A stretch of 64,000 nt of DNA from NCBI GenBank assembly GCA_036023115.1, contig JAYKKT010000079.1, positions 8,417,501 through 8,481,500 of the forward strand, given 5' to 3'. Within the stretch, counting starts at the first letter, position 1, and every line of letters begins with the position of its first letter. Source of the DNA: Brasenia schreberi (taxonomy: Eukaryota > Streptophyta > Magnoliopsida > Nymphaeales > Cabombaceae). Of this stretch, positions 1-44,600 are shown in pieces. The position numbers and the translations under genes are program-made. Below the pieces are notes generated by a model that had not been told where the DNA came from, made no database searches, and saw only the letters and a program-made list of their open reading frames with translations.

Positions 1-857
1 TTTTCTTAGCATAATGTAATTTGTAACATACCCTCTTTGCCTTGATTTTATTTTACACTACTTCACTCTACCACCAAGCTTCTTTCTGTGCCGGTACACC
101 TTTCTTAGATACACCTAACACATCTTTCGCCACTTTCCTAATATGTATAGCCATATTGTTCCACGTATCACAGGGTGTACCAACATAATTCCAAACATCT
201 CCTTGAAGGACTTTATGTTTAAATATATCTTCTTTTTCGCTTTTGAGGTTCCACCATTTAGTCTGAATAGCTCGATGAACTCTTTTCTTCTTTGTCTATT
301 TTTTTATTTTTAAATCCATAACTAAAAGTCGATGTTGGGTGGTTAAGCTTTCTCCTAGAATTACCTTGCAATCTTTACAACACGCTCTATCTTTTTTCTA
401 CAAATAAAGTAATCAATTTGTGTTTGTGATAAGCCACTCTTATAAGTAATTAAATGTTCATCTCGTTTTTTGAATTGTATTGACTATAAAAAGATCAAAT
501 GCGATAGCAAAATTTAAAATCTCCCTACCTTCCTCATTTATATCCCCAAAACCAAAGTTTTCATGAATCCCTTGATATCCTAATGCCTCTTTACCGACAT
601 GTCCATTTAAGCCTCCTCCTAAACAAATCATCTCCCTTTGTGGAATCTTTTGAATCACCTAATCTAACTCTTCCCAAAAAGTTGTCTTTATACTATATTC
701 TAGTCCTACTTGGGGTGCGTAAGCACCAACTATATTCAAAACCTCTGCTCCTAAAACTAATTTCACCGTCATGATTCGATCACCACATTTCAACTTATCT
801 AACTCTTTCCAAAAAGTTGTCTTTATACTATCTTCTAGTCCTACTTGGGGTGCGTAA
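1..857 (-). mobile_element. RTE-type LINE fragment (copy 1, left part)
   Basis: Minus-strand LINE sequence. It closely parallels the intact copy at about 6415-7200, covering the endonuclease domain and the region just downstream. A short reading frame at 458-658 keeps the endonuclease signature MICLGGGLNGHVG, where the active-site Asp of GGDLN has become Gly. The copy is split at 857 by an LTR element and resumes at 3844. At 661-857 a segment of about 130 bases is partly duplicated: the stretch around TCTTCCCAAAAAGTTGTC occurs twice in a row, which is not so in the other copies. The 3' part of the LINE lies beyond the left edge of the window or is missing. It is a decayed relic. Confidence 0.85.
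853..857. repeat. Target-site duplication of LTR element (left)
   Basis: CGTAA directly before the TGTTGAAG start of the LTR. The same five bases follow the other LTR at 3839-3843, and the LINE reading resumes there. This is the 5-bp duplication expected of a retroviral-type integrase. Confidence 0.9.
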
Positions 858-1156
858 TGTTGAAGAATACGAGTTTAGAGTCAGTTTTGATGTTTTATAT
901 ATTATTGTAATTGTCCGGAGTATTGAGGGCATTTTGGTAATTTTCTATACTAAGGGTATTTTGGTCATTTTACGTTTTACAGCTCCTTATATAAGGGTTG
1001 ATAGGTTGTATTAGGGTTAAGTGACTGTAATTAAGAAAGAGAGAGAAAGAGGGGGGCCGGCCTCCACTGGAGGTCCGCCCCCTCCCGATCTCCACATTTT
1101 TCTCTTTAATGTGTATGATCTTTTTCTTCTTCGTTGCGCAACCATGTTTTCCAACA
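858..1156 (+). repeat. 5' LTR of gene-capturing element
   Basis: 299 bases, starting TGTTGAAG and ending CAACA. It contains a TATA-like TATATAA at 988-994, a plausible element promoter, and a polypurine-rich GAAAGAGAGAGAAAG stretch. It matches 3537-3838 over its full length. Confidence 0.9.
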
Positions 1157-1170
1157 TGGTACCAGAGAAG
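1157..1170 (+). other. Primer-binding site
   Basis: TGGTACCAGAGAAG begins at the base after the LTR end. It resembles the TGGTATCAGAGC site complementary to initiator tRNA-Met that is common in plant Copia elements, with a T-to-C change and a diverged 3' part. Confidence 0.75.
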
Positions 1171-1269
1171 GTTCGATAAAAATTGTGGGTGAAACATAAA
1201 AAAAAAAAAATCAACAATAGTGGCCTTGTGATAGAAGAGAAAGAGGGAGCCATCGGCGGCAATGGGGAG

Positions 1270-1605
1270 GATGTTGATTGGGCATTACTTCTAGAGCAAA
1301 CTCCTTATTATAAAGATCTGGCTGCTCTTGCAGTACAAGCGGGTGTTTGTGTGGATATATTTGTTGTAACAAACGAGTATACAGACTTGGCATCCCTAAA
1401 GTTCCTCAGCATCAAAAGTGGAGGCTCGTTATTTCTTTACTCAAACACTGATGATTCAACACTGCCACAGGACATGTATCAGATGTTGAGTCGTCCATAT
1501 GCATTTGGTTGTATATTGCGCATTAGGACATCCTCTGACTTCAAACCTGCTCATTCGTATGGTCATTTTTTCCCAGATCCACAGTATGAAAATGTTCAAT
1601 ACATC
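1270..1605 (+). pseudogene. Captured Sec23/Sec24-family fragment
   Basis: An open stretch of about 112 codons reads like the trunk and beta-sandwich entry of a plant Sec23/Sec24-like COPII coat protein. Recognisable pieces are YYKDLAALAVQAG, EYTDLASLKFLSI, SGGSLFLYSNTDD, LPQDMYQMLSRPYAF and HFFPDPQYENVQ. In intact family members this region is followed by a cysteine-containing stretch. Here the match stops at about 1605 and the frame runs without a break into PPR sequence. No intron is seen inside, which fits capture from RNA but does not prove it. The frame is open from about 1183 and has no ATG until well inside the fragment. It is one segment of the chimeric cargo and not a working coat protein, which would be several hundred residues long. 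Confidence 0.75.
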
Positions 1606-2091
1606 ATGCGATTCCTATGCCTCTCTCTTCTCAAAGCCTGTGCTTCCATGAATCACCTCAAGCAAATCCATGCCTAAATCACGATGAATCATCCGAAATC
1701 GTCTTCCTGGAATTGCGTTATGAGAGGCTTATCTTATAGTGAGACTCCAAATATGGTGATCTTGGTATTCAAGACAATGCTCTCACATGGCAGAAAACAG
1801 AACAATCTTCCGTTTCCGTTCTTTTTCAAAGCATGTGGCCTCCTCGGTGCCATCCATGTGGGTAAGCAGATTCATGCCCAATCAACAAAGACCAGCTTCA
1901 ATTCTGATATCTATATTCAGAATGTTGTAGTCCGTTTCTATGCTTCTTGCTGCGAGATTGTCAATGCGGTCCAACTGTTCGACGAAATGCTTGAACGAAA
2001 TGTTGTTTCCTGGACATCCATGATTTCCGACTATTCTAGGAACTCTCTGTTTAAGGATGCTTTGGGACTGTTTCATGAGATGCAAAACGCA
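1606..2091 (+). pseudogene. Captured PPR-protein fragment (first)
   Basis: Pentatricopeptide-repeat sequence of the PLS type continues in the frame of the Sec-like fragment. It begins with LCLSLLKACASMNHLKQIHA, is interrupted by TAA at 1675-1677, then runs from the ATG at 1684. Typical motifs are [40 protein letters not shown] and DALGLFHEM. The stop sits where PPR proteins usually have Gln in QIHAQI, so a single CAA-to-TAA change would explain it. The fragment lacks a targeting peptide and a C-terminal E or DYW domain. It joins histone H2A sequence in frame at about 2092. Confidence 0.8.
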
Positions 2092-2331
2092 AAGTATCTT
2101 GCTGCTGAGGTGTTGGAGCTCGCTGGTAATGCCGCTCGTGACAACAAGAAGACGAGAATTGGGCCCCGCCACATTCAATTGGCCGTGAGGAACGATGAAG
2201 AACTCAGTAAGTTGTTGGGCAAAGTTACGATTGCTAGCGGGGGTGTGATGCCCAATATTCATAACGTTCTGCTTCCCAAGAAGGTTGGTTTGTCTGGGTC
2301 TACAAAGGTCATGGGAGAAGACGATGGTTGA
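2092..2331 (+). pseudogene. Captured histone H2A C-terminal half, fused in frame to PPR
   Basis: From codon 137 of the 215-codon frame starting at 1684, the sequence becomes plant histone H2A. It covers the end of the second helix through the docking region, with motifs [58 protein letters not shown] and a short acidic tail ending in TGA at 2329-2331. The N-terminal half of the histone fold is absent and replaced by PPR repeats, so it cannot form a normal H2A-H2B dimer. Small changes from the conserved sequence include Gly for the usual Val after KKTRI and Lys for Asp after LLG. The natural H2A stop appears to have been kept, which suggests capture of a last exon or a cDNA 3' part. Confidence 0.85.
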
Positions 2332-2379
2332 TAAAAGGGGGAACGACCATGATTTCTAGGCTTGCATTGCATTGCATGG

Positions 2380-2570
2380 ACTTGGAGAAGAAGCATCATT
2401 TAGGTTTGGTGGATCATGCCGAAAAACTTTTCAGGATATGCACCGCCTGTGAGAATCATGCCTGCAAGTGGGCATTATGGTTGCATGGTCGACTTTCTTG
2501 GTCGTGCAGGTTGCTTAAAGGAAGCATTTTATGTTGCAAAAAGCATGCATGTAGAACCTAATTGGATATC
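2380..2570 (+). pseudogene. Captured PPR fragment (second), frameshifted
   Basis: C-terminal type PPR sequence in two frames. GLVDHAEKLFR (about 2404-2435) is followed, after a frame change, by SGHYGCMVDFLGRAGCLKEA and SMHVEPN (about 2460-2560). This is the stretch normally seen near the end of PLS-class PPR proteins. It lies downstream of the H2A stop and has its own breaks, so it is not translated as part of the upstream chimera. Confidence 0.7.
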
Positions 2571-2639
2571 AAGTGGACATCAGAAGAGGAAGCTAGAAAA
2601 TGCCAGTGACTCGTACTTTGGCTGGACTGTGATAGAGAA

Positions 2640-2815
2640 GGCGAGAATATTGCATTTGAAGTAACTGAAGTCTGCACGTCTGCTAATCAGGATCTCAACA
2701 TATTCAGAGCATAATTCTCAGCTTTGATTGATAGGGAAATATACGAAGCTGCTCAGAATCATGGCAGACCCAATCAACTGTTTGATGAAATGCCTAAGAG
2801 AGATGTATTCGAATA
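2640..2815 (+). pseudogene. Third short PPR-like remnant
   Basis: Around 2750-2812 the sequence reads HGRPNQLFDEMPKRDVFE before a stop. NQLFDEMPKRDVF is the classic PPR helix-turn signature. The preceding part (from about 2640) is open but unrecognised. It may come from the same PPR donor as 2380-2570 or from another one. Confidence 0.5.
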
Positions 2816-2990
2816 GATGATTAACATGAACATCACAGAAAATGTTTAAGAGGGCTGGAAAATTCATGAAAAGAGTAAAGAAGAGATTAGTACGTGATGA
2901 TTGTCTCTATTCGAAAAACAAAATGAAGAAAGTTTACAAAAAAGAGATGTATGCTGAAGATTGCAGTTATGAGGACTGAAGAAATGTTTT

Positions 2991-3406
2991 TATATGCAGC
3001 CAGAGATGCTACTTGAGATGATCAGCTAGGAAGGTTGAGTTGATGTTGCAGCCAGAGATGCTGTTTGAGATGATCAGCCAGAAAAGTTGAGTTGATGTTG
3101 CAGTCAGAGATACTGCTTGAGATAATCAGCTAGGAAGGCTAAGTTGATGTTGCAGTCAGAGATGCTCCTTGAGATGATCAGTCAAGAAGACTGAGTTGAT
3201 GTTGCAGCCATAGATGTTGCTTGAGATGATTAGCCAGGAAGGCTAAGTTGATATTGCAACTAGAGATGCTGCTTGAGATGATCAGTCAAGAAGACTGAGT
3301 TGATGCTACAGCCATAGATGTTGCTTGAGATAATTAGCTAGTAATGCTAAGTTGATATTGCAGCCAGAAATACTGCTTGATATGATCAGCCAAGAAGGCT
3401 GAGTTG
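2991..3406 (+). repeat. 52-bp minisatellite, eight copies, inside the LTR element
   Basis: Eight tandem units with boundaries at 2991, 3043, 3095, 3147, 3199, 3251, 3303 and 3355, each exactly 52 bases. The shared core is CAGAGATGCTGCTTGAGATG followed by ATCAGCCAGGAAGGCTGAGT. Copies differ by substitutions without indels. As 52 is not a multiple of three, the array is not a protein repeat. It sits just upstream of the polypurine tract. Confidence 0.9.
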
Positions 3407-3524
3407 AAGATGTTGTAGCCAAAGAAGTTGTTGAAGATTAGACAAGTGATGAAGACAAATGAAGAATGTTGCAGATAGATGAAGACTTTTGGCAAGTTTG
3501 GAGTTTGAAGTATCTCACTCCCAA

Positions 3525-3536
3525 CTTGAGAGGGGG
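3525..3536 (+). other. Polypurine tract
   Basis: ACTTGAGAGGGGG directly before the TGTTGAAG start of the 3' LTR, the usual plus-strand priming site of Copia-like elements. Confidence 0.8.
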
Positions 3537-3838
3537 TGTTGAAGAATATGAGTTTAGAGTCAATTGTGATGTTTTATGTATTATTGTAATTGTCTGGAGT
3601 ATTGAGGGCATCTTGATAATTTTTTGTACTAAGGGTATTTTGGTCATTTTATGTTTTACAACTCCTTATATAAGGGTTGATAGGTTGTATTAGGGTTAAG
3701 TGACTGTGATTAAGAAAGAGAGAGAAAGAGGGGGGGCAGCCTCCACTGGAGGTCCGCCCCCTCCTCCCGATCTCCACATTTTTCTCTTTAATGTGTATGA
3801 TCTTTTTCTTCTCCGTTGCGCAACCATGTTTACCTACA
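3537..3838 (+). repeat. 3' LTR of gene-capturing element
   Basis: 302 bases matching 858-1156, with mostly transition differences and a small indel in the G-rich and CTCC-rich part. Ends CTACA, followed by the TSD CGTAA at 3839-3843. Confidence 0.9.
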
Positions 3839-3843
3839 CGTAA
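3839..3843. repeat. Target-site duplication of LTR element (right)
   Basis: CGTAA, a copy of 853-857. It is followed by GCACCAACTATATTC, the continuation of the LINE as seen uninterrupted at 7138. Confidence 0.9.
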
Positions 3844-4544
3844 GCACCAACTATATTCAAAATCTCTGCTCCTAAAACTAATTTCAACGTCATGATTCGA
3901 TCACCATATCGTTGTATGTCTACTACACTATCCTTTAAATCTTTATTTAAGATAACACAACTCCATTTCGAGCCTTTTCTTTACCTGAGTATCATAATTT
4001 AAAATATGTATCTTCTATTTCCTTTGCTTTTTCTCCAACCCATTTTGTCTCTTTTAAACATAGAATATGAATCTTTCTCCAAATCATAGTATCTACCACC
4101 TCCATTAGCTTACCAGATAATGTTCCGATATTCCAAGAACTAATACGAATCTTATTATCTAGGACTAGCTTCCTTACCCCCCGCATCCGTCCATAATCAA
4201 AATGCAGAGACCCTCTCTGAAAATTATTCACTATATTTGGACGGCAATGTAACGGGACTAACTTCTTTACCCACACCTGTCCATGACGTGGGAACCCTCT
4301 CTGCAATTGATTCACTACATTCGGGCGAAAATATAGTGGCCCTTGCTTACTTATTACTGCATTCGGGCTCTACAGCATGTCGCGAGGCGGGGATGCTCGA
4401 AAGCAATGCTCATAATTTTTGTAATCCATGTTATAAAAATCCGACGAGGTTTTACGTTGGCTGTCGAAAGCCTAACACAACCCTCCTCTTTTATCCGGGC
4501 TTGGGACAGGCAATGTAAGGGTGATCCCTTATATGGGTGGAGTT
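3844..4544 (-). mobile_element. RTE-type LINE copy 1, 5' part
   Basis: The continuation of the LINE interrupted at 857, covering the start of the endonuclease and the 5' leader. At 3992-4315 a 107-codon frame retains ISSWNIGTLSGKL and the catalytic-Glu motif as LKETKW (LQETKW in the intact copy). The 5' end is AACTCC at 4544, matching the 5' ends of the LINE at 41634 and the SINE at 8414. It is decayed by frameshifts and stops. Confidence 0.85.
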
Positions 4545-4588: not shown

Positions 4589-6356
4589 CTAGACGGGGTC
4601 GGCTACATGGATTCTTTGTTTCCACAGATCTCTATCGTGTGCCATGTTAGCAGTTAACTCCCAATAAGCTAGATCATTCTTTATTATTTCTTTCCAACAC
4701 TTTTGTGGTCGTCCTCTACCTCTTTTAATACTTTCCAAATTTAGGTTTTCTAACCTTCTTACAGGTTCTTCTTTTGATCTTCTTTCTACATGTCCAAACC
4801 ATCTTAAACGATGTTCTCTCATTTTATCCTCTATTGGTGCCACTCCTAATTTGTTTCTAATAACCTCATTATGTATACGGTCTTTTCTTGTATGACCACT
4901 CATCCATCTCAACATCTTCATTTCTGTCACAGACATCTTTTGTACATGTTGACGATTAACTGCCCAACACTCAGAACCATAAAACATGGCAGGCCTAACT
5001 GCTGCTCTATAATATTTACCTTTTAATTTTAATGGTATCTTCTTGTCACAAAGAATACCTGATGCTCCTCTCCATTTTAACCAACCAGCATTAATTCTAT
5101 GTGTAACATCTCCATCAATTCTTCCATCACTTTGAAAAATTGACCCTAGGTATTTAAAACTTTCCTTTTGGGGAATGCAATGTGTGCCAATTTTAATTTC
5201 TATGTCCTCTGAAGTAGCCAAATGATCAAACTTACATTCCATATATTCTGTCTTTGTTCAACTAAGTCGGAGGCCTTTGTTTTCTAATGTTTCTCTCCAT
5301 AGTTCCAATTTTCTATTAACTTTTTCCTTAGACTCCTCCACTAATACAATGTCATCTGCAAATAACATACACCAAGGTACTTCATCTTGAATATGTTTTG
5401 TTAACTCATCCATCACCATTATAAATAAGTATGGACTTAAAGTTGATCCTTGATGTAACCCAATATTAACTTCAAAGAAGTCTGTCGTTCGTTCCTTCAT
5501 GAGTCCTCACACATGTTTTTGCACCATCATACATGTCTCTTATAAGGTTAATATATGTCAATGGGATACCTCTTATTTCCAAAGTTCTCCAAAGAACCTC
5601 CCTCGGTACCCTATCATAAGCTTTTTCTAGATCAATAAATATCATGTGAAGGTCTTTCTTTTTTGCTCTAAAATGTTCCATAAGACGTCTCAAAAGGTGA
5701 ATCGCTTCAATAGTAGATCTACCAGGCATAAATCCAAATTGGTTCTCTGTTGTACTTGATACTTGTCTTAACCTACGTTCAATAATTCTTTCCTATAATT
5801 TCATAGTATGACTCATTAACTTGATACCTCGATAATTCGCACAATTTTGAATGTCTCCCTTGTTTTTATATATGGGTATAAGTGTACTTGCTCTCCATTC
5901 CTCGGGCATCTTTTGGTTTTTCCATATTTCATTAAATAGTCTTGTGAGCCAAGTGATTCCTATTTCTCCTAGTATTTTCCAAACTTCTATATAGGAATAT
6001 TATCTGGTCCTACCGATTTACCACTCTTCATATGTTTAAGAGCCTCTTTGACTTCATTCTTTTGAATACGTCGGTAGAAATTGTAGTTTATATACTTTTC
6101 TGACTTGGCTAAATCTCCTAAACTAATACTAACATCTTTATTTTCATTAAAAAGATTATAAAAATAGTTTTTCCATCTATTTCTTATATCATCATTTGCC
6201 ACTAGAATTTTTTCATCCTCGTCTTTTATGCATCTAACATAATTAAGATCTTTAGTTTTCTTATCTCTAGCCCTAGCTATCCTAAAAATGTCTCTTTCAC
6301 CCTCTTTTGAGTTGAGTTTTTTATATAAGTCCTCCCAAATCTTAGCTTTTGCTTCA
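4589..6356 (-). pseudogene. LINE copy 2 reverse transcriptase and C-terminal region (frameshifted)
   Basis: Successive frames give one broken RT. 5987-6202 has the N-terminal MKSGKSVGPDNIP motif. 5472-5729 has [13 protein letters not shown] and [18 protein letters not shown] (catalytic motif A). 5258-5500 has [11 protein letters not shown] (motif B) and CMLFADDIVLVEE with the catalytic FADD (motif C). 4589-5242 is a 217-codon C-terminal domain with [42 protein letters not shown] and [11 protein letters not shown], ending in HVADPV. Catalytic Asp residues are kept, so the damage is frameshifts and a few stops, not loss of active-site residues. The terminal RLRWFGHV block is common in plant RTE-like proteins. 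Confidence 0.85.
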
Positions 6357-7727
6357 CTAACGGCCTTTTTTGCTTCCTTCTTTGCTTTTCTTATAAGCTT
6401 CTAAAGTTTCACTAGTTTTCTTAGCATAATGTAATTTGTAACATGCCCTCTTTGCCTTGATTTTGTTTTGTACTACTTCACTCCACCACCAAGCTTCTTT
6501 TTGTGCCGGTACACCTCCCTTAGATACCCCTAACACATCTTTCGCCACTTTCCTAATATGTATAGCCATATTGTTCCACATATCACAGGGTGTGCCAACA
6601 TAATTCCAAACATCTCCTTGAAGGACTTTTTGTTTAAATATATCTTCTTTCTCACTTTTGAGGTTCCACCATTTAGTCCGAATAGCTCGATGCACTCTTT
6701 TCTTCTTTGTCCATTTTTTTATTTGTAAATCCATAACTAAAAGTCGATGTTGGGTGGTTAAGCTTTCTCCTGGAATTACCTTACAATCTTTACAACACGC
6801 TCTATCTTTTTTTCTACAAATAAAGTAATCAATTTGTGTTTGTGATAAGCCACTCTTATAAGAAATTAAATGTTCATCTCGTTTTTTGAAGATTGTATTG
6901 ACTATAAAGAGATCAAATGACATAGCAAAATTTAAAATCTCCCTACCTTCCTCGTTTATATCCCCATAACCAAAGTTTCCATGAATCCCTTGATATCCTA
7001 ATGCCTCTTTACCGACATGTCCATTTAAATCTCCTCCTAAACAAATCATCTCCCTTTGTGGAATCTTTTGAAACACCTTATCTAACTCTTCCCAAAAAAC
7101 TGTCTTTATACTATCTTCTAGTCCTACTTGGGGTGCGTAAGCACAAACTATATTCAAAACCTCTACTCCTAACACTAATTTCAATGTCATGATTCGGTCA
7201 CCATATCGTTGTATGTCTACTACACTCTCCTTTAAATCTTTATTTATGATAATACCAACTCCGTTTCGGGCCTTTTCTTTACCTGAGTACCATAATTTAA
7301 AACCTGTATCCTCTATCTCCTTTGCTTTTTCTCCAACCCATTTTGTCTCTTGTAAACATAGAATATGAATCTTTCTCCGAATCATAGTATCTACCACCTC
7401 CATTAGCTTACCCGATAATGTTCCGATATTCCAAGAACCAATACGAATCTTATTATCTAGGACTAGCTTCCTTACCTCCCGCATCCGTCCATAATCAAAA
7501 TGCGGAGACCCTCTCTGAAAATTTTTCACTACATTCGGGCGGCAATGTAGCGGGACTAACTTCTTTACCCACACCTGTCCATGATGTGGGAACCCTCTCT
7601 GCAATTGATTCACTACATTCGGGCGAAAATGTAGTGGCCCTTGCTTACTTCTTACTGCATTCGGGCTCTGAAGCACGTCGCTAGTCGGGAACGCCCCAAA
7701 GCAATGCTCATAATTTTTGTAATCCAT
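6357..7727 (-). CDS. LINE copy 2 endonuclease frame (456 aa)
   Basis: The longest open frame of the window. Residues about 1-75 hold a duplicated leader: LHFRPNVVNQLQRGFPHHG is followed by LHCRPNVVKNFQRGSPHFD. From about residue 90 it is an APE/exonuclease III-type endonuclease: IRIGSWNIGTLSGK, then LCLQETKW (catalytic Glu), a central [17 protein letters not shown] (Asp and Asn), SQTQIDYF, and the terminal TTQHRLLVMD with the catalytic His. In the active element this protein would nick target DNA and supply the 3'-OH for target-primed reverse transcription. The frame ends at 6357 before the RT, whereas in RTE elements EN and RT form one protein. So it is the N-terminal piece of a broken polyprotein. 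The ATG at 7727 is the first in a good context, but the true start may lie upstream. Confidence 0.85.
   Translation of the reverse strand: MDYKNYEHCFGAFPTSDVLQSPNAVRSKQGPLHFRPNVVNQLQRGFPHHGQVWVKKLVPLHCRPNVVKNFQRGSPHFDYGRMREVRKLVLDNKIRIGSWNIGTLSGKLMEVVDTMIRRKIHILCLQETKWVGEKAKEIEDTGFKLWYSGKEKARNGVGIIINKDLKESVVDIQRYGDRIMTLKLVLGVEVLNIVCAYAPQVGLEDSIKTVFWEELDKVFQKIPQREMICLGGDLNGHVGKEALGYQGIHGNFGYGDINEEGREILNFAMSFDLFIVNTIFKKRDEHLISYKSGLSQTQIDYFICRKKDRACCKDCKVIPGESLTTQHRLLVMDLQIKKWTKKKRVHRAIRTKWWNLKSEKEDIFKQKVLQGDVWNYVGTPCDMWNNMAIHIRKVAKDVLGVSKGGVPAQKEAWWWSEVVQNKIKAKRACYKLHYAKKTSETLEAYKKSKEGSKKGR
7495..7640 (-). repeat. Internal duplication in LINE leader
   Basis: Two diverged copies of about 65-80 bases in the LINE 5' region, both containing CACTACATTCGGGCG on the plus strand (about 7527 and 7611). 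They encode the duplicated RPNVV...QRG block. The same pair occurs in copy 1 (about 4200-4335). Confidence 0.65.
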
Positions 7728-7832
7728 GTTGTAGAAATCCGACGAAGTTTTACGCTGGCTGTCGGAAGCCTAACACAACCCTCCTCCTTTATCGGGGCTT
7801 GGGACCGGCAATGCAAGGGTGATCCCTTACAG

Positions 7833-9207: not shown

Positions 9208-12200
9208 CAGTGTTGTCTGACGCGTATCGTATTACGTATCGCTGGGCTCCACGATACGAGAGTATTGTATCGCCCGTATCGTAAAAAAAAAAAGTAAAAA
9301 TCCGAAAAAAATCAAGAAAAATCTGGTAATTACTTTAAATTCATATAATGCAAAGTTTAGTACAGGTTGAGCATTCAACATTGAACAATTGCATCCAAAT
9401 TTACATATTTTGAATAAAAAAATAAAATATATTTACATTTTACAAATTGTAATCAGGATCATCAACTAAATAATCTTCATCTTCTCCTTATTCGAGATCC
9501 TCATCATCAGCAGCAGCAATACCTTCTGCTTGAAAATCAAATTCTTCATCTCCTCGATATTGTTGTTCCGCTCCTTCCAAATTAATCAATGCAATGTCTT
9601 GTTCACTTAGGAGAACATTTTCTTCACTGTCTTCTATAACCCAATCTTCTAATATATCAAAATTATCCAAACTTATTGAATCAAATTGGCTTTCTTGTAT
9701 ATTTACTTTTTTTAATTGCCTACAACAAACAAAGATAAACAATTAGTAAATAATATTAACAATTGAAGTTAAACAATTTATTGAATTGAACATTTAAATA
9801 ATAGTAATAAACATTACCTTTCACAAAGGCGCATGTTACAACGAATAAAAACTAAATCATTTAGTCTTTTATGTTCTAACCTATTGCGCTTCTTTGTATA
9901 GATGTGTTCAAAAACACTCCAATTTCTTTCACAACAACATGTTACACTACAGGTTTGGCTCAAGACTCTTACTATAAAATCTGTAAGGTTCAGACAATCA
10001 GTTCCAAACCTATTCCACCAAACATTTGTAGAAAAAGACAAACATTAGAGACATAATCCACAATAATATAAGATGCAACTTAAATATGAAAATAAACAAT
10101 TTATCTGGACACATCGTAGTGCGGTTGCGAATTGCTACAGGCAAACCCATCAAGTGAAGAGCATTATTATATATCTCGATCTCTCGATATATAGCATCTG
10201 CTATACTCTCATCAGGGACTAATCTATCAATACAATCAATGATTCCTCGATTAACCTCACCGTCCCTTTTGAAGGTTGCTGAGTACCTGAATGATGGGTT
10301 TAGATAATAGGTTGTTGCATGAATAGGCTGATGCAATTGTTTATTCCATCTATTATCAATTATTTTTCACACGTGCACATAATCTCTCTTTGTTCATTAA
10401 AATTATTTATGATGGCTTCTTTTGCCTTATCTATGGCTTCATAAAGGTAGCCCATTGATGGTTTCTCCTCGCTGTCAGCCAATATCAAAACTTTCACTAA
10501 AGGACAGCTAATTCTCAACAATCTAATACATGCATTCCAAAATGTACTTCTAAAAACTGTCTCTGCAATCTCATTCAACTTTCTATTTCTTCTATTCTGA
10601 AGCAACTCTCCAAATTGTTGTCACTCATCTGAGGAAAACATTCTCTTCAATGCTTACTTTTGTCTCACAATACTCTACAGATAAGAAGTTTGTTGCAAAC
10701 CGAGTTGCAACTGTTCGAAGAAGCTCTGCACCTTCTGTATATCTCATCATCATATACAAAACAAATGCATGATTGTAAATGAATTTTATCTTAACACTCA
10801 GTTGCTACCTTTATTTCATCCATCTCACTAATGTCCTCAAGGATGAGATCTAAACAATGAGTTGCACATGGTGTCCAGTAGAAAGTCCCATAAATATCAG
10901 CTAACTCCTTCCTAGTTGCTTTGTAGCTAGTTGCATTATCTGTAATTAATTGGACTACATTCTCTAGCCCAACCTCTTGTACTATAACCTTATCAAATTC
11001 TTCTCGTAGAATATCTGTAGTGTGTCTCTCCTCTAACATATCTAAAGATCTCAAAAACACAAGTCCTTTAGGACAGTATATAAAAAAGTTTAGCAAGGCC
11101 CTTTCTCGCATATATGTCCATCCATCTGCCATGATAGTGCAACCTGTCTCCTTCCATGACTCTCTCAATATCGAACAGTATTCTTCACTTCAATGACGGT
11201 CTTATCTAAGATATTTTCTCTCAACTTCTGATAGGAGGGCATCTTGTATTCTGGACCGATGTTAGCAATTGCATCTACCATTGCTTGAAAATGAAAATTG
11301 TTTGCTGTATTGAATGGAATGCATGCATTATAAAACCATCTGCCCACTGCAAGGTTTGCCTGATCATGCAACTGTTCTGAAGCCATAGCTGCACAAATTT
11401 CAGGTTGAGCACCAAGTGTAGTAGGAAGAAAAAATGAATGTATACTAGAAGAAGCTCTTCCTCTACTCCTTCCTGAACTTCCTCTTCCACCACCTCAAAA
11501 GTCTTCAACAACCCTCTTTCTCTTGCTAGGTACTCGTGAACTGCTACTATCAATCTCTGTTCTAGTATCTGAAGGCAAACTATCAGTGAATCCAAATCCA
11601 GTAGCATCATCTTCTTCTTCAAACATCTCCAAATCATCCTTTTGTTGTCTCCTTTCCTTTATACTCTCAATCATCTGCAGACATTGTCATTTAATACCTT
11701 CTGGCAAACTTGTAACTCTGCCTATGCATGGAGCAACTTCTTTCCTAGTCCCTACTAGGTGGTGTTTTAACCGTAAAATTCCACGACTAACCACCCTTTC
11801 ACAAAATAAACATCTGATCTTTAATCTGAAACCCTCAACTAGTGTACCCCACTGCCATGCTGGATCATAGACTTAGAATGGGAGTATCTAACAACCCTTC
11901 CTGCCATCTCAATTGAGTACTTTAATTCAATAAAAAACCTGAAAATAAAAGCACTTTGTAAATCCCCAATCGTCAAATAACACTCAAATAGAGTGTATCC
12001 CACTTTATGAATGCAATAAAAATCATATCCACACACTTAATAACTTCATATTTTGTCATTAAAAAAAAGAAAAATACAAATAAACAAATAAAAAGAAAAA
12101 AATAAAGAAAAATATTAAAAATATACCTAAATCCGAGATAGGAGGCTTGCACGAACACCGTAGAGCACGGTTTTGGAGCCTTGAACACCAAGGAGGCGAA

Positions 12201-14022: not shown

Positions 14023-17000
14023 CCCGACTATGGCATGTGGGCTCATTAGATCAATTGCTGGTAGAATACCACTGTTCCAAGAAATTGAAGATGTCAGCAT
14101 GTTGAAGAGCCCACAAACAAGCAACTTAAATTGATATACACTTTAAAGTATCAAAACACAGCTGCAGAAAATGTAGCATGATGATACCATTCATAGAGAT
14201 GTTTTGATTCAAACGAATATGCAGATACAATTACAGGCAGTTCAACAAACTAGGGACACACAAAACTTTGAATAGACGCTTACACGTGCAACATACTGCA
14301 ACATACCATCAAAAACATAAGTACTTTACAATTTGCATATCTCAGAACCAGAACTAGAAAACATGTTTTTGGTGGTATGTTTATGCTTTCAGTTGTCATT
14401 TTTTTTCCACAAGCCCAATTCTTCATATGCAAAATGCATAACCATTGCACTAAGCAGAATTTTATAACTTTACTAAGAAGAAGAAAATGATGATAATGCT
14501 AATATGGTCAAGACAAGTTGAGCAAGGTTGCAGATAGGAGACAGAAAATATGCAGTGGGAAAACTAGATGACCCCCTAAGATCTAAAATTTTAGTTCTTG
14601 ATACTATTGAGGCTATTCATCTACAAAGACATCTTATTGAAGCTCTTAGAGAAAAAAAAAACTTCATATGATATTTATTGATCTATAAAAGCTCATGAGA
14701 GGATGCCAAGAGATATTCTTTAGAGATCCTTACAAGAGAGGTATTTTATTGACATAAATCAATCTTATAAGACATTCATGATGTACACAACCATGCGTGA
14801 GGACTCATGAAGAAATAACGGATTTCTTTTAAGTTAACATTAGATTATATCAAGGATCAACTTTAAGTCAATATTTATGTACCTAGGTTATTGATGAGTT
14901 AACAAAACATATTAAAGATAAGTACTTTGGGATATGTTATTTAGAGATGACATAGTGTTAGTGGATGAGTCTAAGGAAAAAGTTAACAGGAAATTAGAAG
15001 TATGGAGAGAAAAATTAAAAAGTAAAGGCTTCTAACTTAGTAAAACTAAGACAAAATATATGATGAAATGTAGGTTTGATTAATTGGTTACTTCAGATAG
15101 CATACAAACTAAGATAGGCATATATTGCCCATGTTATCAATAGTGTGCTATAGCGGCCTCTATAGCGCGCTATAGCATTATAGCGGAAAACAAAACACTA
15201 TAGCGCTTGTATTATAGCGACCAACCTGTCAGGGCGGTGTTAACGGTGCTAACACCACTATAGCAGACCGCTATAGCAGGTTGCTATAGCGGTATTAGTG
15301 TACAAGTCATTTGGGTCTGGTTGATCTAGGGGACTGACCCCAATGTAATAAAACCTAAATTGGCGTCCCTCTCCCTTCCGCCTCTCGCCTTTGTTCTCTC
15401 TGCCACCACCAACGTGCACAACCTCCCCTCCACCATCGATGCCACCGCCTCCTTCCGTCGCCTTCCTCCACCGCAGGTAAACTCTCTCTCCCTTTCTCTC
15501 TTCTCTCTCTCTGCCTATATGTTGCCTTCTCTCTCGTGGATTCTCCTTTTTCTCTCTCTTTTAGCAGATTGTCCATTGTACTCATACATTTATTGCTTGC
15601 CTTGAGCATTAAGAACTTTAATGGCAACCAAAGTGTAACACATTCATCCTTTGTACACAACTCTTAAGCCACCTTCTCCAATCTTGGAGTTGGAATCAAA
15701 GTTGTTCGTGGCCTTCATCAACTCCTCGTGAGAGAACATAGTGAAACTTTGCATTATCCTCCTCTGTCTAGCATCTCCACCTTGTCGAAGACTACTCTCT
15801 TCAACTTTATATAAAGCTTCATCCCTATGCTTTTGCATCTCCAACTTTTTCCTCCCAACGTGTGACAGATATGTGTGCTACTCTTAGCTTACCAAGTGCT
15901 TTGTGTGACCTATATTTGGAATCAGTGATTTCCGCAGAGAGTGATAATTTATCCGCCTTTAGTTCTTTGACATTTGTCACTGTATCTTTAAGTTGTTTCC
16001 TAATCTTCTCTGATACTTGTCTTTCTTTGGAAAGAATTGTCTCTACGTTCTTCCTTTGTTTCTATTCTCTTTATAGTGCAATTTCAACTAGTCTTGTATG
16101 TAAGTAGGCAATGACCATATATAAGATGTCACTCACATGCACAAATATACAATTTATCTATGTTTGTATGTGAATTCATGCGTGTGTGAGAGAGAGAGTC
16201 TTTTACTTGCAATCTTACCTTACACTTCAATAGCCTCATGTTCTGCCTTTTGTTGTCTTTGTGACTCCTTGAAATATTTGCACTTACTAATCTTTAAAAT
16301 GTCACAAATTAGGAGAAATGTGTTTGAGAATAATACAGTCTCCCCGTGTGTACCATTTTTCTTGCTAGCTGAGTATTTATTCTAATTTTTTATAGTCAGT
16401 ATGAAATCATCAGCAAGTGGAGCCGCTTGCATTCATTAACATTAACATGGATGAAACGTTTAGCTTGATGATTTCCCTATGTTAGTTATGTTTTGAACTT
16501 GTTATTTGTTAAGTTGTTAAGTACTTAGTGGTTATATTTGATCCTTGCTAAAGTTGTTACTTCAAAATTATTATAAATATTTTAGTCAATTGGTCCACTA
16601 CTCCACCCTAGCATCATTCTATTCTTTTTGCACATCACTATAATTTATTTCACTTCTCAAATTAGATAAGAGTCATGAACCATATTCACCGTAATTGAGT
16701 AGATAAGTAATTATATATTTGTTTCTTTTTACATTTATATTTTTGTTTTCTAATTTAAGGTTAACAACATGCATGTGCCACATGTTTCCTTAGAAGTTAG
16801 AAGTAGATTTTATTTATTTAGTTTGATTCATATTTATGAAAGAAGTAGTTGTGTTTCTTGATATTTCTTAGAAATTAGGGAAGCTATTATATATATATAT
16901 ATATATAATTTTTTAATCATAAATAAAAGTGTACTGCTAAATCCACTATATCCCGCTATATTAACGATACCGCTATATCAGAGTCGACTACTAGCAACCT

Positions 17001-20000
17001 ACTAACCGCTATTGATAACATAGTATATTGCATCCCTCATTACGAAAATTATAAATACCGCTATATCAGAGTCGACTACTAGCAACCTACTAACCGCTAT
17101 TGATAACATAGTATATTGCATCCCTCATTACGAAAATTATAAATACTTACGATCATTTTTTCAGAGCAATGAGAAAATTGATGAAGTTGTTATACATAGA
17201 ATTAATACAAGTTGGTTAAAACAAAGAGATGCATCAGGTATTTTATATGACAAAAAGATACCTTTTAACTTTAAAATTTAAAGATAAATATTATAGAGCA
17301 CTTACAAACTTAGACCTCCTATGTTATAAACACTAAGTGTCGAGTAGTTAATTGTTGACATGTACAAAAGATATCCGTAACAGAAATCAAGATGCTTAGA
17401 TGGATGAGTGGTCACATAAGAAAAAATCATACACATAATGAGGTTATTAAAAAGAAATTGGGAATTGCATCAATAGTTAATAAAATAAGAGAAAATCATT
17501 TAAGATGGGTTAAACATATAGAAAGAATATCAAAGGAAGTTACGATAAGAAAGTATGAGAAACTAGATTGTAAAAATGTTAAAAAAAAGATAAAGACCAC
17601 AAAAGTATTGAAAAGAAATAATAAAGAATGATCTAGCTTATATAGAGTTAATTGCTAGCATAGCATGACACATGATCGGATTCCATGAAAACAAAGAATC
17701 TACATAGCCGACCCCGTACACGTCATGAGTATCACAAACGAATTGGGAGTGACACCAATACTTGAAAAGATGAAAATCATTTGAGATGGTTCGGACACGT
17801 GGAAAGGTGACCAAAGGAAACTCTAGTAAGAAAGTGTGAGAAATTAGACGGTGAAAATGCTAAAAGAAAATGAGGAAAACCACATAAATGTTGGAAGGAA
17901 AATTTAAAGAATGATTTAGCTTATTCTAAGTTAAGTGTTAGCTGTAAATGTATGTAATAGGACGGGCCCGTGCAGTCATGATGTAAGGGAGGGCCAGGGC
18001 CACCATGGCCCTAGCCAAAGTTGTTGGAAGCTCCAACGGCTAGCCGTTGAGCCCCAACAGCTAGTGCTGGCCAAGGCCAGCACTACCTCTTGCTTCCCTC
18101 TTGCTTGTTGTTTTTTCCTATTATTCATGTACATATTGTTGTCTATAAAAACCACTTCAAGACATGAATAAAGTATGCAGTCTAGAACTGCTTTTTGACT
18201 TGTTTTTTATGTGCTTCCGCTCTTGTTGGTTATTCTTGAATATCGGCATTCGTGATTGAATGTCATTTGACTCTTGGCGACTTGGTCATCTTGATTCGTG
18301 CAATATCAACCTTCGTTCATTTACAAATATTTACATGGTATCATAGCCTCAAATTGAAGAAATCGAGTGCATTGGAAGCATGCCACCGATACAAAATTTG
18401 AAGAATTTCACCAAACTTGAGGTTAGTTCATAATTCTTGATTTTGCACAAAATGGAAGGTAAAAACGAGTCATTTAGATGTATCATAGACTCAAAATGTT
18501 ATCAAAGTTGGGCTAGGATCATGAAAAAGTATTTTTTGTCGAAAGATTTTTGGGATTTCATAGATGGAACCATAAAGGAACCAACTTTGAACATTGATGG
18601 TTTAGATGATGAAATCGTCAAAGCTCATGAAAAATACAAGTTAGATTTGAAATTGTGGGAAAAGATGAATGCAAAAATTACATTGATTATTTGCCAAAAT
18701 GTGGATGAAAAGCTTAGAAATAGGATTAGTGCTTTTGAAAACACTTTTGAAACTTGGGAATACTTGAAAAAACTTCATTCTCAAGATGACTTTGTTTTTC
18801 AAATCGATCTAATGAGATGAATATTTATTCAAACGGATTCCATGAAATATAAATCAACTCATAAATAGCAAACATGTGTGAGTTAAAAATGAATAAAAAA
18901 GTGTACGACACAGAAGACAAAAAAAGGACACATGATAATGTGAAGAGCAACTAAAATAAATACCAATATATGAAGACCTATGTTGCATGGATACGAGTAC
19001 GGTACCTGTATGGTACTGGTATCGGGTATGGGTAGATAAATTTTTTTAAAACTAAGGTAAAGGTACCTCACTATTAAAAAAACATGATAATAAATAAATA
19101 TAAACACAATTTTAAAGAGCTGGTGCTTGGCTGATAAACATCAAATTCAATCAGTAATTTACAAGAAAATGCCTAAGAAATTGTACATGGTACTCCACAT
19201 TACAAAAAAAAGGGGGTTGAAGAAGCTCCATATCAGATGTACACCCTTTGTATGGGAGTCTTGACCGTTTTAAGTTGAGTGATTATAGAAGTTTGTGGAA
19301 ATTATGTAGGCTTGCTTCGCAAGAGGTTTTAGACGATCAAGAAAGAAGTTTTCCTTTCCAATAAGTGTTTGCCCCTCTCAAATATTCAAACAAAGATCTT
19401 TGAGTCTTTTGCATCCAACCATTGACAAAAGTGTTTATATTGGTCCGCAACGGCAACTGCAACAAGTTTGAGGTTGCCAATCAACAAGAAAAGCAAATTT
19501 CCTACCGTTCACTCTCATATGGGCATGTAACGGAATGGTGGATTTATTGTAGAAGGTGAGACAAATACATCAAACTTTCAGATATTTATTATCACCAATT
19601 ACGAAAGTGTTTTTTTCCAATTTTAATAAGGCCAAGTTTTTGTTGCTTCTTTAAAGGTACTACTTGTTTGTCAGTTGATTTTTCCATACATCGAGACAAT
19701 GAGCATCTCTCTCTCTCTCATTCGTCAGGTTTCCCATCACAGGTTCGTTTGGTTCTCCCATTCACACCATTGACACATCATCATGAGTTGAGAAGGCAGT
19801 TTCACGCATCATCGTCAAAGAATTGAAATCGTTCTGGTGTCCTCCTCTCTCTTTCTCTCTCATACTCATCTCCTTTCCATTTGCAGATATGAACATAGGT
19901 ATTAATTTCTTCTTCTTGTTCCTTCTTCTCCTCCTCTTCTTCTCTTCTTGTGTTTTCTGCATTTTTGTGTTTGCAGGAGATTGCCATCTGAGATGTTGTT

Positions 20001-35229: not shown

Positions 35230-35686
35230 TGTAAGATTCAACTTTTAACTGGACTTAACTTTCCGCGTCTTTTTGTGTCCAGCATTTTCCGGGTTGAGTT
35301 GGTGCTCAGGTCCCAAATTGAAAGCGCTGCCAGTCAGCATCCCCCAAAGTAAAACGACGGCAGCCAGCAATCTTCAGATGCCATGTCCCAACGTTACTCC
35401 AATCGACTGCCATCGCCGAAGAGTTTTGATTACTGCTATATTGGTTTGCACGAGATCCGTTAATCGTGCCGATATATTTAGGTGGTGTGAGAAACCCCGC
35501 GAACGAGATTTTCGACCATCTGCCCTTCGTCCCGCAAACCCCCAATCGGCGCTTGAGATCTGAGCGAGGAAACAATTATTGAGAAGGCGGTCTCTCTCTC
35601 TCTCTGGAGCGGCGCTGGATGTGAACACACTACGGCTGGCTTCCTTCGCTTTCTACTTCCTCGACGCCTTCGCCTCCTCCGGAACC
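35230..35686 (+). promoter_or_regulatory. GID8-like gene promoter and 5' UTR (inferred)
   Basis: The GC-richer segment ahead of the start codon. A TCTCTCTCTCTCTC tract at about 35591-35605 is of the kind common in plant 5' leaders. No transcription start can be fixed from sequence alone. Confidence 0.4.
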
Positions 35687-38600
35687 ATGGTGCGACCGAA
35701 ACCTTTGATCTCCTTCCGTGTTTCCGAAAGAGTCTTTCGATGCTGGAAAGATTTTCTGGGTCTTTGTTGACGAGGTATTTTTTCTCTAATTTGCAGTCGA
35801 CGTCGAAAAAAGTGATCACTTGGGAGGAATGGGAGAAGAAGCTTAGTGACATCAAGATTCGGAAGGAAGACATGAACAAGCTTGTAATGAACTTCCTGGT
35901 CACCGAGGGATACGTCGAGGCTGCCGAGAAGTTCCGGTTGGAATCGGGCACCGAGCGTATCCGACCCTCCTTCCTCCCCCAAATTCCCATTTTTCTGTTT
36001 TGCAAATCCTTTTTCTTTTTCTATATTTGCTCTTTCTCTCTGCCGCTTGAGTCGATTTCTGTTCGTCTCTGAAATTACTATATGCAATGCGCGTTGTCCG
36101 ACCTTATCTGTGGACAGCAGACATCGATCTCTCAACAATAACCGATCGGATGGCGGTGAAGAAGGCCGTGCAGAGCGGCAACGTGGAAGATGCAATCGAG
36201 AAGGTGAACGATTTGAATCCGGAGGTATGCCACCCGCGCTTGTCTTTTTGCACGAAATCAATGTTATGCCTATGATTCAATAGAAAATTGCATGCTGATT
36301 GCGGAGGTACTGTGGTTTCTAAGTTCCATTACAAGATCTCTTAAATGAAATAATTTGTTAGAATTGTAAAATGGAAATCATGGATAGCTTGGAACTTTCT
36401 TTTAAATAATGAAAGATCAATGTTGTTTTCCCTCTTAGCATATTATTACGGTACCCATTAGCCTGTGCTTCTTAATCTCTTCATCGGTACATATCTGAAT
36501 TGTGTGACTCGAGAGAGAGATTACCCATTATGCTAATCTTGACTATTTGTTGCATGTAGAACAGCCTACAGCCCTCCTTCCCCCTGTATATGGGCCTCCT
36601 GGTTTCCTATCACTATGCGTAAGGAAAAGGGAAATGACTTCAGAAAACGTTGAAAGAAAACCAACATTTTGAGCTAGAAGTTACCTTTTACTTTGCTCAG
36701 TGGAATTCTGCGTACTTTTTCTTTGAAATAGCCTGGCATGCTATTGGTTTGTTTGTTGAATGACCCAAGAATTAATTGCTATGATTGATGTTGTCGGTGG
36801 CATATAAGAAAAAGTTAGTGCTTGGCCTGATCATTTACAAGGGTGTTGTAGTGCTATGCCACTGTTAGAAGTTCTTAAAATGAAAATTATACAATTGAAT
36901 GTTCAAATTGACTTGAACCACACCTTTTATGAATGTAAATAAATCTACACAAAGTCATGGCAATATGTAAACATGAATTTAACTATGTCACGGAACGGAA
37001 ACACTTCACCTAGGTAAAGTATCATTTGAGATGCTAACTAGGTAAAGTGCCATTAGAATTAAGACATTGACACTGATGGCAAGTCCTATCTCATCAATAG
37101 CAGGCAGTGACCCTTTGGTTGTAATACAGCATTAATACGGGTCTATTAAATTTAGCTATATACCATCATTAGAACCTTATAATTTAGTGCTATGCACTGT
37201 TAAATTATTCAAGACAAATTTATACAACTAAAATGTAAAAAATAACTTGAACCACACCTTTTATAAATGTAAATCAATCTATAAAAAGTCATGCCAATGT
37301 GTAAACGTGAATTTAACTTATAATTATGTAAAAAAAAAACACTTCGCCTAGGTAAAGTATCATTTGAGATACCAACTAGGTAAAGTGTCATTTAAGATAG
37401 AAGACATTGACTTTGATGGGGAAGTCCTATGCCATCAATAGTGGGCAGTGATCCTTTGGTTGTAATATAGCATTAGTAAGGGTCTATTAGATTTGGCCAT
37501 ATACCATCATTAAAACCATAAAAATATACAATTAACTGTCAGTAACCAGGATTATAGTTAAGATATTTCATAAATATAAATCTATATAAGTAACAAAGGT
37601 ACAAAATTAAAATAAAAACAATGATGAGAAACAAAATAAAAATTCTTTGCAAACATTTATAATGTATGAACTATTGTTAGATTATAGATTATGGGAACAA
37701 ATTACTTGAAAGACTTCCATCATAAATTTGAGGTTTAGAGTCCACAAACATTATTGTGTATACCATAGAATCATTTATGGATTGTATAAAATACAAGACA
37801 TAAAAAATTAGATAAATTGTACAACTACAATATTCATAAAAGGGTATATATATGTTTTATACGTTCAGAAATAAAATTGAACTTTAAACAACATGGTTAA
37901 TATTATCTCATATTTGATAACATACATATTAAATAATTGCATTACCTAGAATAGGTGATAGCTTAATAATTTTATAAAATGGTCAGTAAAATGATGAAAT
38001 CGGAAATATTTGTATTATCTACAGTAAGTGAATAAAATTTTAACTCATATAATAGACTTAGCAGCCATATAGTGGGCCTAGCAGGCATAACAAACTTTGC
38101 TGGTGTATTATCTTAAAAGCATCTCTTCTATCTTCTATATCTATCGTTTTATACAAATCCTCTCAATCTTTGTCTATTGTTTCACTGCCTTTCCAACTCT
38201 TATGAGTTTTTCTTTTATAATGCAGTTTAACACACTTTCTTTGCCTTAATTTGATCTTAAAGTACTTCACTCAACCATGAGTCCTGTTCTTTTATTTCGG
38301 TACACCTGTTTTAGATTCCACTGGCCCCCACCTTTTCACAATTTTATTGCTTATTTCAATAATTTGCCATATATGATATCCTAAAGTTTTAAACATCTAT
38401 TTGAAGTATTTTCTGCTAAAATTAATCTTCATGCTCCTTTTTAATATTTTTACGGTCTACTGAAAGTAGCTTCATGAAATCTTTTCCTCCTTTTGGGCTT
38501 AAGTTCATCACCAATATTTTATGTTGGGTAGTCAAACTCTCTTGCAGGATAACCTTATAGTTTTACAACTTATCTTCAAGGCAAAGTAGTTGATGAGAGT

Positions 38601-41600: not shown

Positions 41601-44600
41601 TTAGATGATATGTTCAATATTCATGCTGTGAACAACTCCGCCCATGTAAGGGATCACCCTTGCATGGCCGGTCCCAAGCCCGGATAAAGGAGGAGGGTTG
41701 TATTAGGCTTCCGACATCCATCGTAAAACTTTGTCATGATTTTTATATCATGGATTACACAAATTATGAGCATTGCTTTGGGGCGTCCCCGCCTAGCGAC
41801 GCGCTGCAGAGCTCGAATGCATTGAAAAGTAAGCAAGGGTCACTATATTTTCGACCGGATGTAGTGAATCAATTACATAGAGGGTTCCCATATCATGGAC
41901 GGTTAGTCCCGCCCGGATAGTGTGGTAGACATACAACGATATGGTGACCGAATCATAACGTTGAAATTAGTGTTACGAGCATAGATTCCTCAAGTAGGAC
42001 TAGAAGATAGTATAAAGACGACTTTTTGAGAAGAGTTAGATAAGGTGATTCAAAGAATTCTACAAAGGGAGATGATTTGTTTAGGAGGAGACTTAAATGG
42101 ACATATCGTTAAAGAGGTATTAGGATATCAAGGTATTAGGATATCAAGGTATTCATGAAAACTTGGGTTTTGGGGATATAAATAAGGAAGGTTGGGAGAT
42201 TTTAAAATTTGCTATGGCATTTGATCTCTTTATAGACAATACAATCTTCAAAAAATGAGATGAACATTTAATTACTTATAAGAGTGGCTTATCAAAAACA
42301 CAAATTGATTATTTTACTTGTAGAAAAAAAGATAGAGCGTGTTGTAAAGATTGCAAGGTAATTCTAGGAGAAAGCTTAACCACCCAACATCGACTTTTAT
42401 TTATGGATTTACAAATAAAGAAATGGACAAAGAAGAAAAGAGTGCATCGAGCTATTCAAACTAAATGGTGGAACCTCAAAAGCGAGAAAGAAGATATATT
42501 TAAACAGAAAGTCCTTCAAGGAGATTCTTGGAATTATGGTGGTACACCTTGTGATATGTGGAACAATATGGCTATACATATCAGGAAGGTGGCGAAAGAT
42601 GTGTTAGATGAATATAAGGGAGGTGCACTGCCACAAAAAGAAGCTTGGTGGTGGAGTGAAGTAGTGTAAAATAAAATCAAGGCAAAGAGAGCATGTTACA
42701 AATTACATTATGCTAAAAAAACTAGTAAAACTTTAGAGGCTTATAATAAAACAAAGAAGGAAGCGAAAAAGGCCGTCAGTGAAGCAAAAGCTAAAATTTG
42801 AGAGGATTTATATAAAAAACTCAACTCAAAAGAGGGTGAAAGAGATATTTTTAGGATAGCTAGGGATAAAGATAAGAAAACTAAAGATCTTAATTCTATT
42901 AGATACATCAAAGACGAGGATGAAAAACTTCTAGTGGCAAATGATGATATAAGAAATAGATGAAAAAATTATTTTTATAAGCTTTTTAATGAAAATAAAG
43001 ATGTTAGTATTAACTTAGGAGAATTAGCCAAATCAAAAAAGTACATAAACCACAATTTCTATCGACATATTCAAAAGAATGAAGTCAAAGAGGCTCTTAA
43101 ACATATGAAGTGTGGTAAATCGGTAGGACCAACCAATATTCCTATAGAAGTTTGGAAAATCCTAAGAGAAAGAGGAATCACTTGGCTTACAAGACTATTT
43201 AATAAAATATGGAGAAATCAACCGAGGAATAGAGAGCAAGTACACTTATACCCATATATAAGAACAAGGGAGACATTCAAAATTGTGCGAATTATCGAGG
43301 TATCAAGTTAATGAGCCATACTATGAAATTGTGGAAAAGAATTATCGAACGTAGGTTAAGATAAGTATTGAGTACAATAAAGGACCAATTTAGATTCATG
43401 CAGGCAAATCTACATGATATTTATTGATCTAGAAAAAGCTTACGATAGGGTACCGAGGGAGGTTCTTTGGAGAACCTTAGAAAAAAGAGGTATCCCATTG
43501 ACATACATAAACCTTATAAGAGACATGTACGATGGTGCAAAAACATGTGTGAGAACTCATGAAAGAATGACAGATATCTTTGAAGTTAATATTGGGTTAC
43601 ATTAAAGATCAACTTTAAGTCCATACTTATTTATAATGGTGATTGATGAGTTAACAAAACATATTCAAGATGAAGTACCTTGATGTATGTTATTTGTAGA
43701 TGACATTGTGTAAGTGGAGGAGTCTAAGGAAAAAGTTAATAGAAAATTGGAACTATGGAGAGAAACATTAGAAAGTAAAGGCTTTCGACTTAGTAGAACA
43801 AAGACATAATATATGGAATGTAAGTTTGATCATTTGGTTACTTTAGAGGACATATAAATTAAAATTGGCACACATTGCATTCTCCAAAAGGAAAGTTTTA
43901 AATACCTAGGGTCAATTTTCTAGAGTGAGGGAAGAATTGATGGAGATGTTATGCATAAAATTAATGCTGGTTGGTTAAAATGGAGAGGAGCATGAGGTAT
44001 TCTTTGTGATAAGAAGTTACCATTAAAGTTAAAGGTAAATATTATAAAGCAACAATTAGACTTGTCATGTTTTATGATTCTAAGTGTTGGGCAGTTAATC
44101 AACATGTACAAAAGATGTTTATGACAGAAATGAAGATGTTGGGATGGATGAATTGTCATATAAGAAAAGACCGTATACATAATGAGGTTATTAGAAACAA
44201 ATTAGGAGTGATACCAATAGATGATAAAATAAGAGAATATCGTTTAAGATGGTTTGAACATATAAAAAGAAGATCAAAAGAAGAACCTCGAAGAAGGTAT
44301 GAAAAACTATATTTTGAAAGTATTAAAAGAGGTAGAGGACAACAACTAAAGTGTTGAAAAGATACAATAAAGAATGATCTAGTTTATTGTGAGTTAACTG
44401 CTAACATGGCACATGATAGGGCTATGTGGAAACACCGAATCCATGTAGCCGACCCCGTCTATTATGGGAAAAGGCTTAGTTGTTGTTGTTGTATTAAACA
44501 ACATGAAAATATATAATTAACTGTTAAGATATAACTAAAACCATATACCTTACATATTTCATAAATATAAACCAATATAAGTAATACAGGTTTATAAATT

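Follow-up and report, generated by a model that had tools for sequence, protein, structure and literature searches.

How does a retroelement without proteins of its own come to carry pieces of several unrelated host genes, and do such elements exchange these pieces with each other? The questions are raised by a locus of Brasenia schreberi, positions 853-3843 of a 64,000-nucleotide stretch of its genome (hereafter, the window; assembly GCA_036023115.1, contig JAYKKT010000079.1, positions 8,417,501 to 8,481,500, forward strand). This locus is a complete, non-autonomous long terminal repeat (LTR) element, and its interior consists of pieces of at least six genes that are present elsewhere in the same genome. 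The original prediction, made from the window alone, had counted at least three unrelated genes plus further PPR pieces; the mosaic is real and larger than that, the PPR material coming from three PPR genes and a DNA topoisomerase 3-like (TOP3) piece having gone unnamed. The element belongs to a family in which host gene shuffling has apparently recurred.

The search for parents and copies covered the window's own assembly (1.055 Gb, 92 contigs; C and L denote contigs of this assembly and fetched loci, respectively). All six cargo pieces lie in the sense orientation of the element, here the plus strand, as had been proposed. The Sec23/24-like piece (1261-1621) joins four exons that match a gene on C49 with 74, 95, 91 and 90% identity, and the three GT..AG introns between these exons are precisely missing. 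Over its first 61 bp, this piece is closer to a paralog on C89 (L034; 90% vs 74% for C49, L033), whereas the next 159 bp are closer to C49 (95% vs 81%), so that the Sec24 piece may itself join two paralogs, by a possible further switch; 5 bp are lost just ahead of its end. The first PPR piece, PPR-A (1617-1988), comes from an intact, intronless 550-amino acid (aa) PPR frame on C75 and lacks ~111 bp (37 codons) of this parent, at a short direct repeat. Among the intact genes read, the one closest to PPR-B (1984-2094) is on C64, a PPR frame of 623 aa with 93.3% identity over 120 bp. The C-terminal histone H2A piece (2093-2342) is 95.7% identical to its parent on C91 over 235 bp, lacks the one GT..AG intron of that gene, at 2107/2108, and passes the stop codon to extend into the 3' untranslated region (UTR) of the parent. 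The remaining pieces are PPR-C (2343-2562), whose parent on C74 is an open PPR frame (two stretches, of 83 and 91% identity, with 80 bp of the parent lost internally), and the TOP3-like (Toprim) piece (2560-2784), which matches two exons of its parent on C90 (90 and 88%) and lacks one GT..AG intron. The Pfam scores for the three families recognized from the start bear out their identification (Sec23_trunk 4.4e-12, PPR 5.4e-15, Histone_H2A_C 2.5e-17), and the TOP3 piece was scored in the sister copy described below (Toprim 2.6e-4, under the cut-off of the model; TOP3 in PDB 8e-8).

Altogether, five parental introns (three in Sec24, one in H2A and one in TOP3) are precisely absent, and therefore these three pieces derive from spliced RNA; the alignment of the cargo with its parents that had been suggested as a check thus finds missing introns for three of the six. 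Comparison with the parents also moves two joins, of Sec24 and PPR from 1605/1606 to 1617-1621, and of PPR and H2A from 2091/2092 to 2093-2094. By eye, four of the five joins contain bases common to both parents (ATGCC, GAAAT, AG and AT), the H2A/PPR-C join not being among them; the shared GAAAT marks the change from PPR-A to PPR-B, within a conserved PPR motif. No poly(A) run was seen at the gene-piece joins inspected, and no systematic search for target-site duplications (TSDs) inside the cargo was made.

The structure around the cargo is that of an LTR retrotransposon, with TG..CA LTRs, primer binding site (PBS), polypurine tract (PPT) and short TSD, and the boundaries given originally stand. 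The perfect 5-bp TSD CGTAA (853-857 and 3839-3843) encloses a 5' LTR of 299 bp (858-1156, +) and a 3' LTR of 302 bp (3537-3838, +), which are 93.4% identical (17 of 299 aligned positions different, Kimura two-parameter distance 0.060). The PBS (1157-1168, +), where the window reads TGGTACCAGAGA from 1157, is followed by a leader (1169-1247, +) that includes 13 consecutive A (1198-1210); downstream of the cargo come a backbone without a long open frame that is common to many relatives (2773-2994, +), a segment (2995-3462, +) with 52-bp tandem repeats (2995-3407), which are also found in several relatives and were absent from the original description, and the PPT ACTTGAGAGGGGG (3524-3536, +). 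Many relatives have interiors that begin with TGGTATCAGAGC at the PBS position, which is presumably of the initiator Met-tRNA type. The leader segment 1203-1247 recurs in a relative, L012 (45 bp, 95.6%), and the final 47-50 bp of the interior, at the PPT end, match many others. The insertion site is a remnant resembling a long interspersed nuclear element (LINE), in which a 134-bp stretch is duplicated in tandem (655-857). The element occupies the second duplicate; in the first (655-788), which carries no insertion, 127 of 134 positions agree with the two flanks once these are joined, so that it can be used as a paralogous empty site.

Neither gag nor pol, the frame expected of an autonomous Copia element, was seen inside the element in the list of open reading frames (ORFs) or in the six-frame Pfam scan, as the original prediction had it. 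That scan returned host families only, or nothing, and of the three ORFs of at least 130 aa, two are cargo and one is antisense to the cargo frames. Scanning the window for tRNAs and Rfam families yielded no match.

The mosaic is not confined to the window. A second whole copy, L009 on C65, has an interior 94.6% identical over 2381 bp and a separate TSD, CGAAG, the pattern of copy-and-paste dispersal. The complete Sec24 piece was found at four loci (all nine candidates scored), and the Sec24-PPR-A join likewise at four loci, with family LTRs at every one, in contrast to the LTR-free locus on which the original prediction could have foundered. From the start of their interiors, the copies on C54 and C33 follow L009 for 867 and 869 bp (97.9 and 97.1% identity, respectively); beyond that, both change, inside a PPR motif and within VVSW codons, to the type of PPR cargo found in L013 (84% over 177 bp in C33, 72% over 337 bp in C54), and PPR-B letters are present just ahead of the switch point. 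These copies have TSDs of their own (CCATC in C54, AGAAG in C33), and their LTR pairs diverge by 0.020 (C54) and 0.031 or 0.040 (C33), compared with 0.060 in the window and 0.050 in L009. Given the start of PPR-B and the less diverged LTR pairs, C54 and C33 look like later recombinants of the window type. The C33 copy (L036) has the arrangement LTR-interior-LTR-LTR, with the TSD outside all three LTRs.

The right-hand part of the mosaic also has a distribution of its own. The block of PPR-C, TOP3 and backbone occurs at at least nine loci including the window and L009 (40 of 693 candidates scored); at the seven others, of which C81 was read, it is 79-83% identical, shares the element backbone and comes without the Sec24-PPR half. 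Abutting matches place the PPR-B/H2A join also at three of these seven, on C81, C38 and C37, with direct reading at C81 only. There, the position left of the right-hand block is taken by a DYW-type PPR frame (DYW_deaminase 4.7e-34) instead of Sec24; no LTR was found within the 2 kb fetched, so that the family membership of C81 rests on the shared backbone.

How widespread is this behavior? A genome search with the 5' LTR, another of the checks suggested originally, revealed a repeat family with at least 43 matches (40 of 3754 candidates scored). Among 20 regions fetched around LTR matches, window excluded, 11 contain two or more family LTRs, five a lone LTR, one an LTR with a 47-bp remnant and three one LTR plus backbone. 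A host gene family was recognized, in the chosen ORFs that were scanned, in seven of the 11 multi-LTR loci: L009 with its Sec24/PPR/H2A/TOP3 mosaic, L013 (PPR), L014 (EZH2-like; Pfam 1.3e-5, under the cut-off, PDB 3e-4), L022 (Brix and MBD), L024 (cholinephosphotransferase, Rab and PPR), L025 (eEF2) and L028, which was counted because its interior and the one of L025 share 94.7% identity, its own ORFs being outside the scan. Three of the 11 (L009, L022 and L024) combine two or more unrelated host families. No significant match was obtained for L010, L011 and L023, with one ORF scanned in each, and L012, where an interior of only 450 bp consists of leader, 52-bp repeats and PPT between the LTRs, is a minimal relative and a candidate empty vector. 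By eye, exact 5-bp TSDs flank eight of 14 elements (the window, L009, L014, L023, L024, L025, C54 and C33), those of L010, L013, L022 and L028 show a one-base difference, and the ends of L011 and L012 are unclear. Two of the multi-LTR loci, L010 and L025, are three-LTR structures (LTR-interior-LTR-interior-LTR). Two other assignments were left out of the count: L021, labeled by eye as APC and HMGB pieces, for which Pfam gave only ANAPC3 at 0.037, and the KIP1 domain of L015 (4.3e-35), where no 5' LTR was found.

L024 is a second mosaic, the first two pieces of which are apparently divided among exons at gene loci. Its cholinephosphotransferase piece matches C91 and C74 in three blocks and its Rab piece C92, likewise in three (40 of 62 candidates scored), and the gaps between these parent blocks, from ~230 bp to 24 kb, are absent from the element. 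Six loci with part of the L024 cargo also carry the 81-bp PPR-B piece of the window, and therefore the mosaics are linked.

Are the fused frames more than a by-product of joining? In the window, the frame that runs over Sec24, PPR-A, PPR-B and H2A is broken by an in-frame stop at 1675-1677. L009 stays open across these pieces for 385 codons, the C54 copy has 343, and the C33 copy is broken. L009 is open across Sec24-PPR-H2A although its Sec24 part drops 5 bp ahead of the join, and the cholinephosphotransferase and Rab pieces of L024 lie in different frames, so that the open fused frame may be luck; in-frame joining as a rule was considered and is countered by these two cases. The pooled ratio of nonsynonymous to synonymous differences (pN/pS) is 0.49 for six pairs of four copies, with single-pair dN/dS between 0.35 and 1.02, few changes and no transition correction; the signal is weak, and selection on the fused frames is not claimed. 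The more ambitious notion that the family is a standing exon-shuffling platform, whose members keep joining host mRNA pieces and trading modules, with translation of some fused frames and selection for keeping them, is doubtful.

We consider it probable that a non-autonomous LTR family joins pieces of host mRNAs and element RNAs by template switching, and later reassorts them. Elements of the family would be mobilized in trans, and their RNA would be reverse-transcribed alongside host mRNAs and the RNAs of other members; the reverse transcriptase would change template at short homologies, so that pieces of spliced host mRNAs end up fused to one another, with the leader on one side and the 3' backbone on the other. 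In later rounds, cargo blocks and LTRs could be swapped between elements, and the window copy would be one product, with a left module of Sec24 and PPR-A and a right module of PPR-B, H2A, PPR-C and TOP3. Template switching between RNAs agrees with the intron loss, the sense orientation, the presence of 3' UTR sequence and the few bases shared at the joins, and copies of the C54/C33 and C81 types are consistent with later switches from one element RNA to another. The original proposal of switching between packaged RNAs thus gains support from the spliced-RNA origin of the cargo; packaging, the switching event itself and a trans-acting partner are what we infer. The TG..CA ends, the 5-bp TSD and the PBS presumably point to a partner of the Copia type.

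Several observations weigh against this reading. PPR-B is closer to pieces at eight loci (95-99% over 81 bp; the two that were read both have family LTRs) than to the C64 gene, and therefore perhaps did not come directly from that gene. The three PPR parents are intronless over the captured part and so are neutral with respect to RNA capture. No autonomous partner was seen, by eye, among the ORFs of the nine one-LTR loci, with no genome-wide search for pol; the Copia pol-like fragments of L018 and L020 (labels by eye) were rejected as a partner, being on the strand opposite to the LTR. The prediction that U5 travels with the cargo failed in C54 and C33: compared with L009, their 5' LTRs are 69-77% identical in the first three 60-column windows, ~88-96% in the middle and 55-65% in three windows at the U5 end, despite 97-98% identity of the cargo, U5 being as different as U3. 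Derivation of the LTR and backbone from one RNA, and of the leader and cargo from another, still fits and agrees with a difference along the whole LTR, and DNA-level exchange might also explain the later exchanges.

The failed U5 prediction favors serial read-through transduction combined with such DNA-level exchange, whereby separate processed retrocopies would have landed in or beside elements and been taken along by read-through, with gene conversion or unequal crossing-over recombining them afterwards. The three-LTR structures of L010, L025 and C33 point the same way, indicating that DNA-level recombination or tandem insertion occurs, as does the A run of the leader, which lies ahead of the Sec24 piece. 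This scenario, however, requires that about six retrocopies landed independently within the same 1.5 kb, every one in the sense orientation, and is set against inspected joins that lack a poly(A) run and share, in four of five cases, 2-5 bases, so that we regard it as unlikely. Uptake, by an LTR element, of a whole chimeric gene that already existed as an ordinary chromosomal locus would account for the long fused frames kept in two copies (385 aa in L009, 343 aa in C54) and is nevertheless very improbable, considering that every one of the four loci with the Sec24-PPR-A join has family LTRs, and that each of the two blocks, left and right, is also found without the other. DNA-mediated capture by Pack-MULE or Helitron elements retains introns; hence, a capture of this kind, with LTRs that came to flank the pieces later, is disfavored by the loss of introns, five of which are precisely absent here. 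The element, moreover, has LTRs, PBS and PPT, and its repeat comparison found no long terminal inverted repeat, which makes this origin extremely improbable, even with DNA transposons also capturing gene pieces, in maize more often than LTR elements according to a genome survey (PMC2774510). For an assembly artefact or chance repeats, the concern raised with the original prediction, no supporting point was found, and with copies on several contigs that have their own TSDs, together with the paralogous empty site, its probability is negligible. Template switching within an LTR family is thus the explanation that we favor.

Elsewhere in the window, endonuclease and reverse transcriptase-like frames were noticed by eye near the insertion (4589-7769, -), which we take to be the remains of a non-LTR retrotransposon, and a similar frame lies at 42259-42669 (+). 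The frames at 10791-11189 (-) of the window and 3023-4366 (-) of L027 resemble each other and are presumably hAT-like transposases. Long overlapping open frames at 35478-36283 resemble part of a host gene, by eye and presumably LisH-like, and a perfect 88-bp tandem duplication is located at 16967-17146.

Because parents, recombinants and reassorted products are found in one assembly, each junction can be inspected for how a retroelement captures and joins mRNAs. If some of the fused frames are used, the family would provide a route to new multi-domain genes; if unused, they would be a source of gene-like annotation errors and might give rise to small RNAs directed against host genes.

Among the closest known systems is maize Bs1, in which three host gene segments, of an ATPase, a xylan endohydrolase and a glucanase, are joined into a chimeric frame in an LTR element (PMC13317346). 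The element described here resembles Bs1 in joining host gene segments inside an LTR element and differs in that at least six parents contributed to one element, the cargo varies between several element types, and elements with different LTRs have modules in common; the captured genes also differ, a distinction made by description, not sequence. Retroduplicated genes in pepper and others are similar to the present case in that intronless host genes lie within LTR elements, ~72% of the pepper NLR cases being in elements without gag-pol, but genes are handled singly there, and two or three genes per element are treated as cases to sort, not as shared modules (PMC5664825). Captured genes in LTR elements have also been surveyed in rice and sorghum (PMC3726574), and captured genes are mostly in the element sense (PMC7264820). 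In maize B73, 425 LTR elements with gene fragments, stemming from at least 189 captures, were reported, and under the conditions of that survey, no LTR element had more than one standard nuclear gene, unlike the several nuclear genes in one element here (PMC2774510). The Veju terminal-repeat retrotransposon in miniature (TRIM) and BARE-2 chimeras have been attributed to template switching; these join element sequence or unknown DNA, whereas several host mRNAs are joined here (PMC13317346). An LTR family that carries and exchanges multi-gene mosaics was not found in the literature searched, where most subscription papers were outside reach and absence is unproven. The label 'undescribed' given originally is, therefore, too strong for a single multi-gene LTR element, which is known from Bs1, and fair for a cargo-reassorting family: within the literature searched, what is new is a family whose mosaics recur and share modules.

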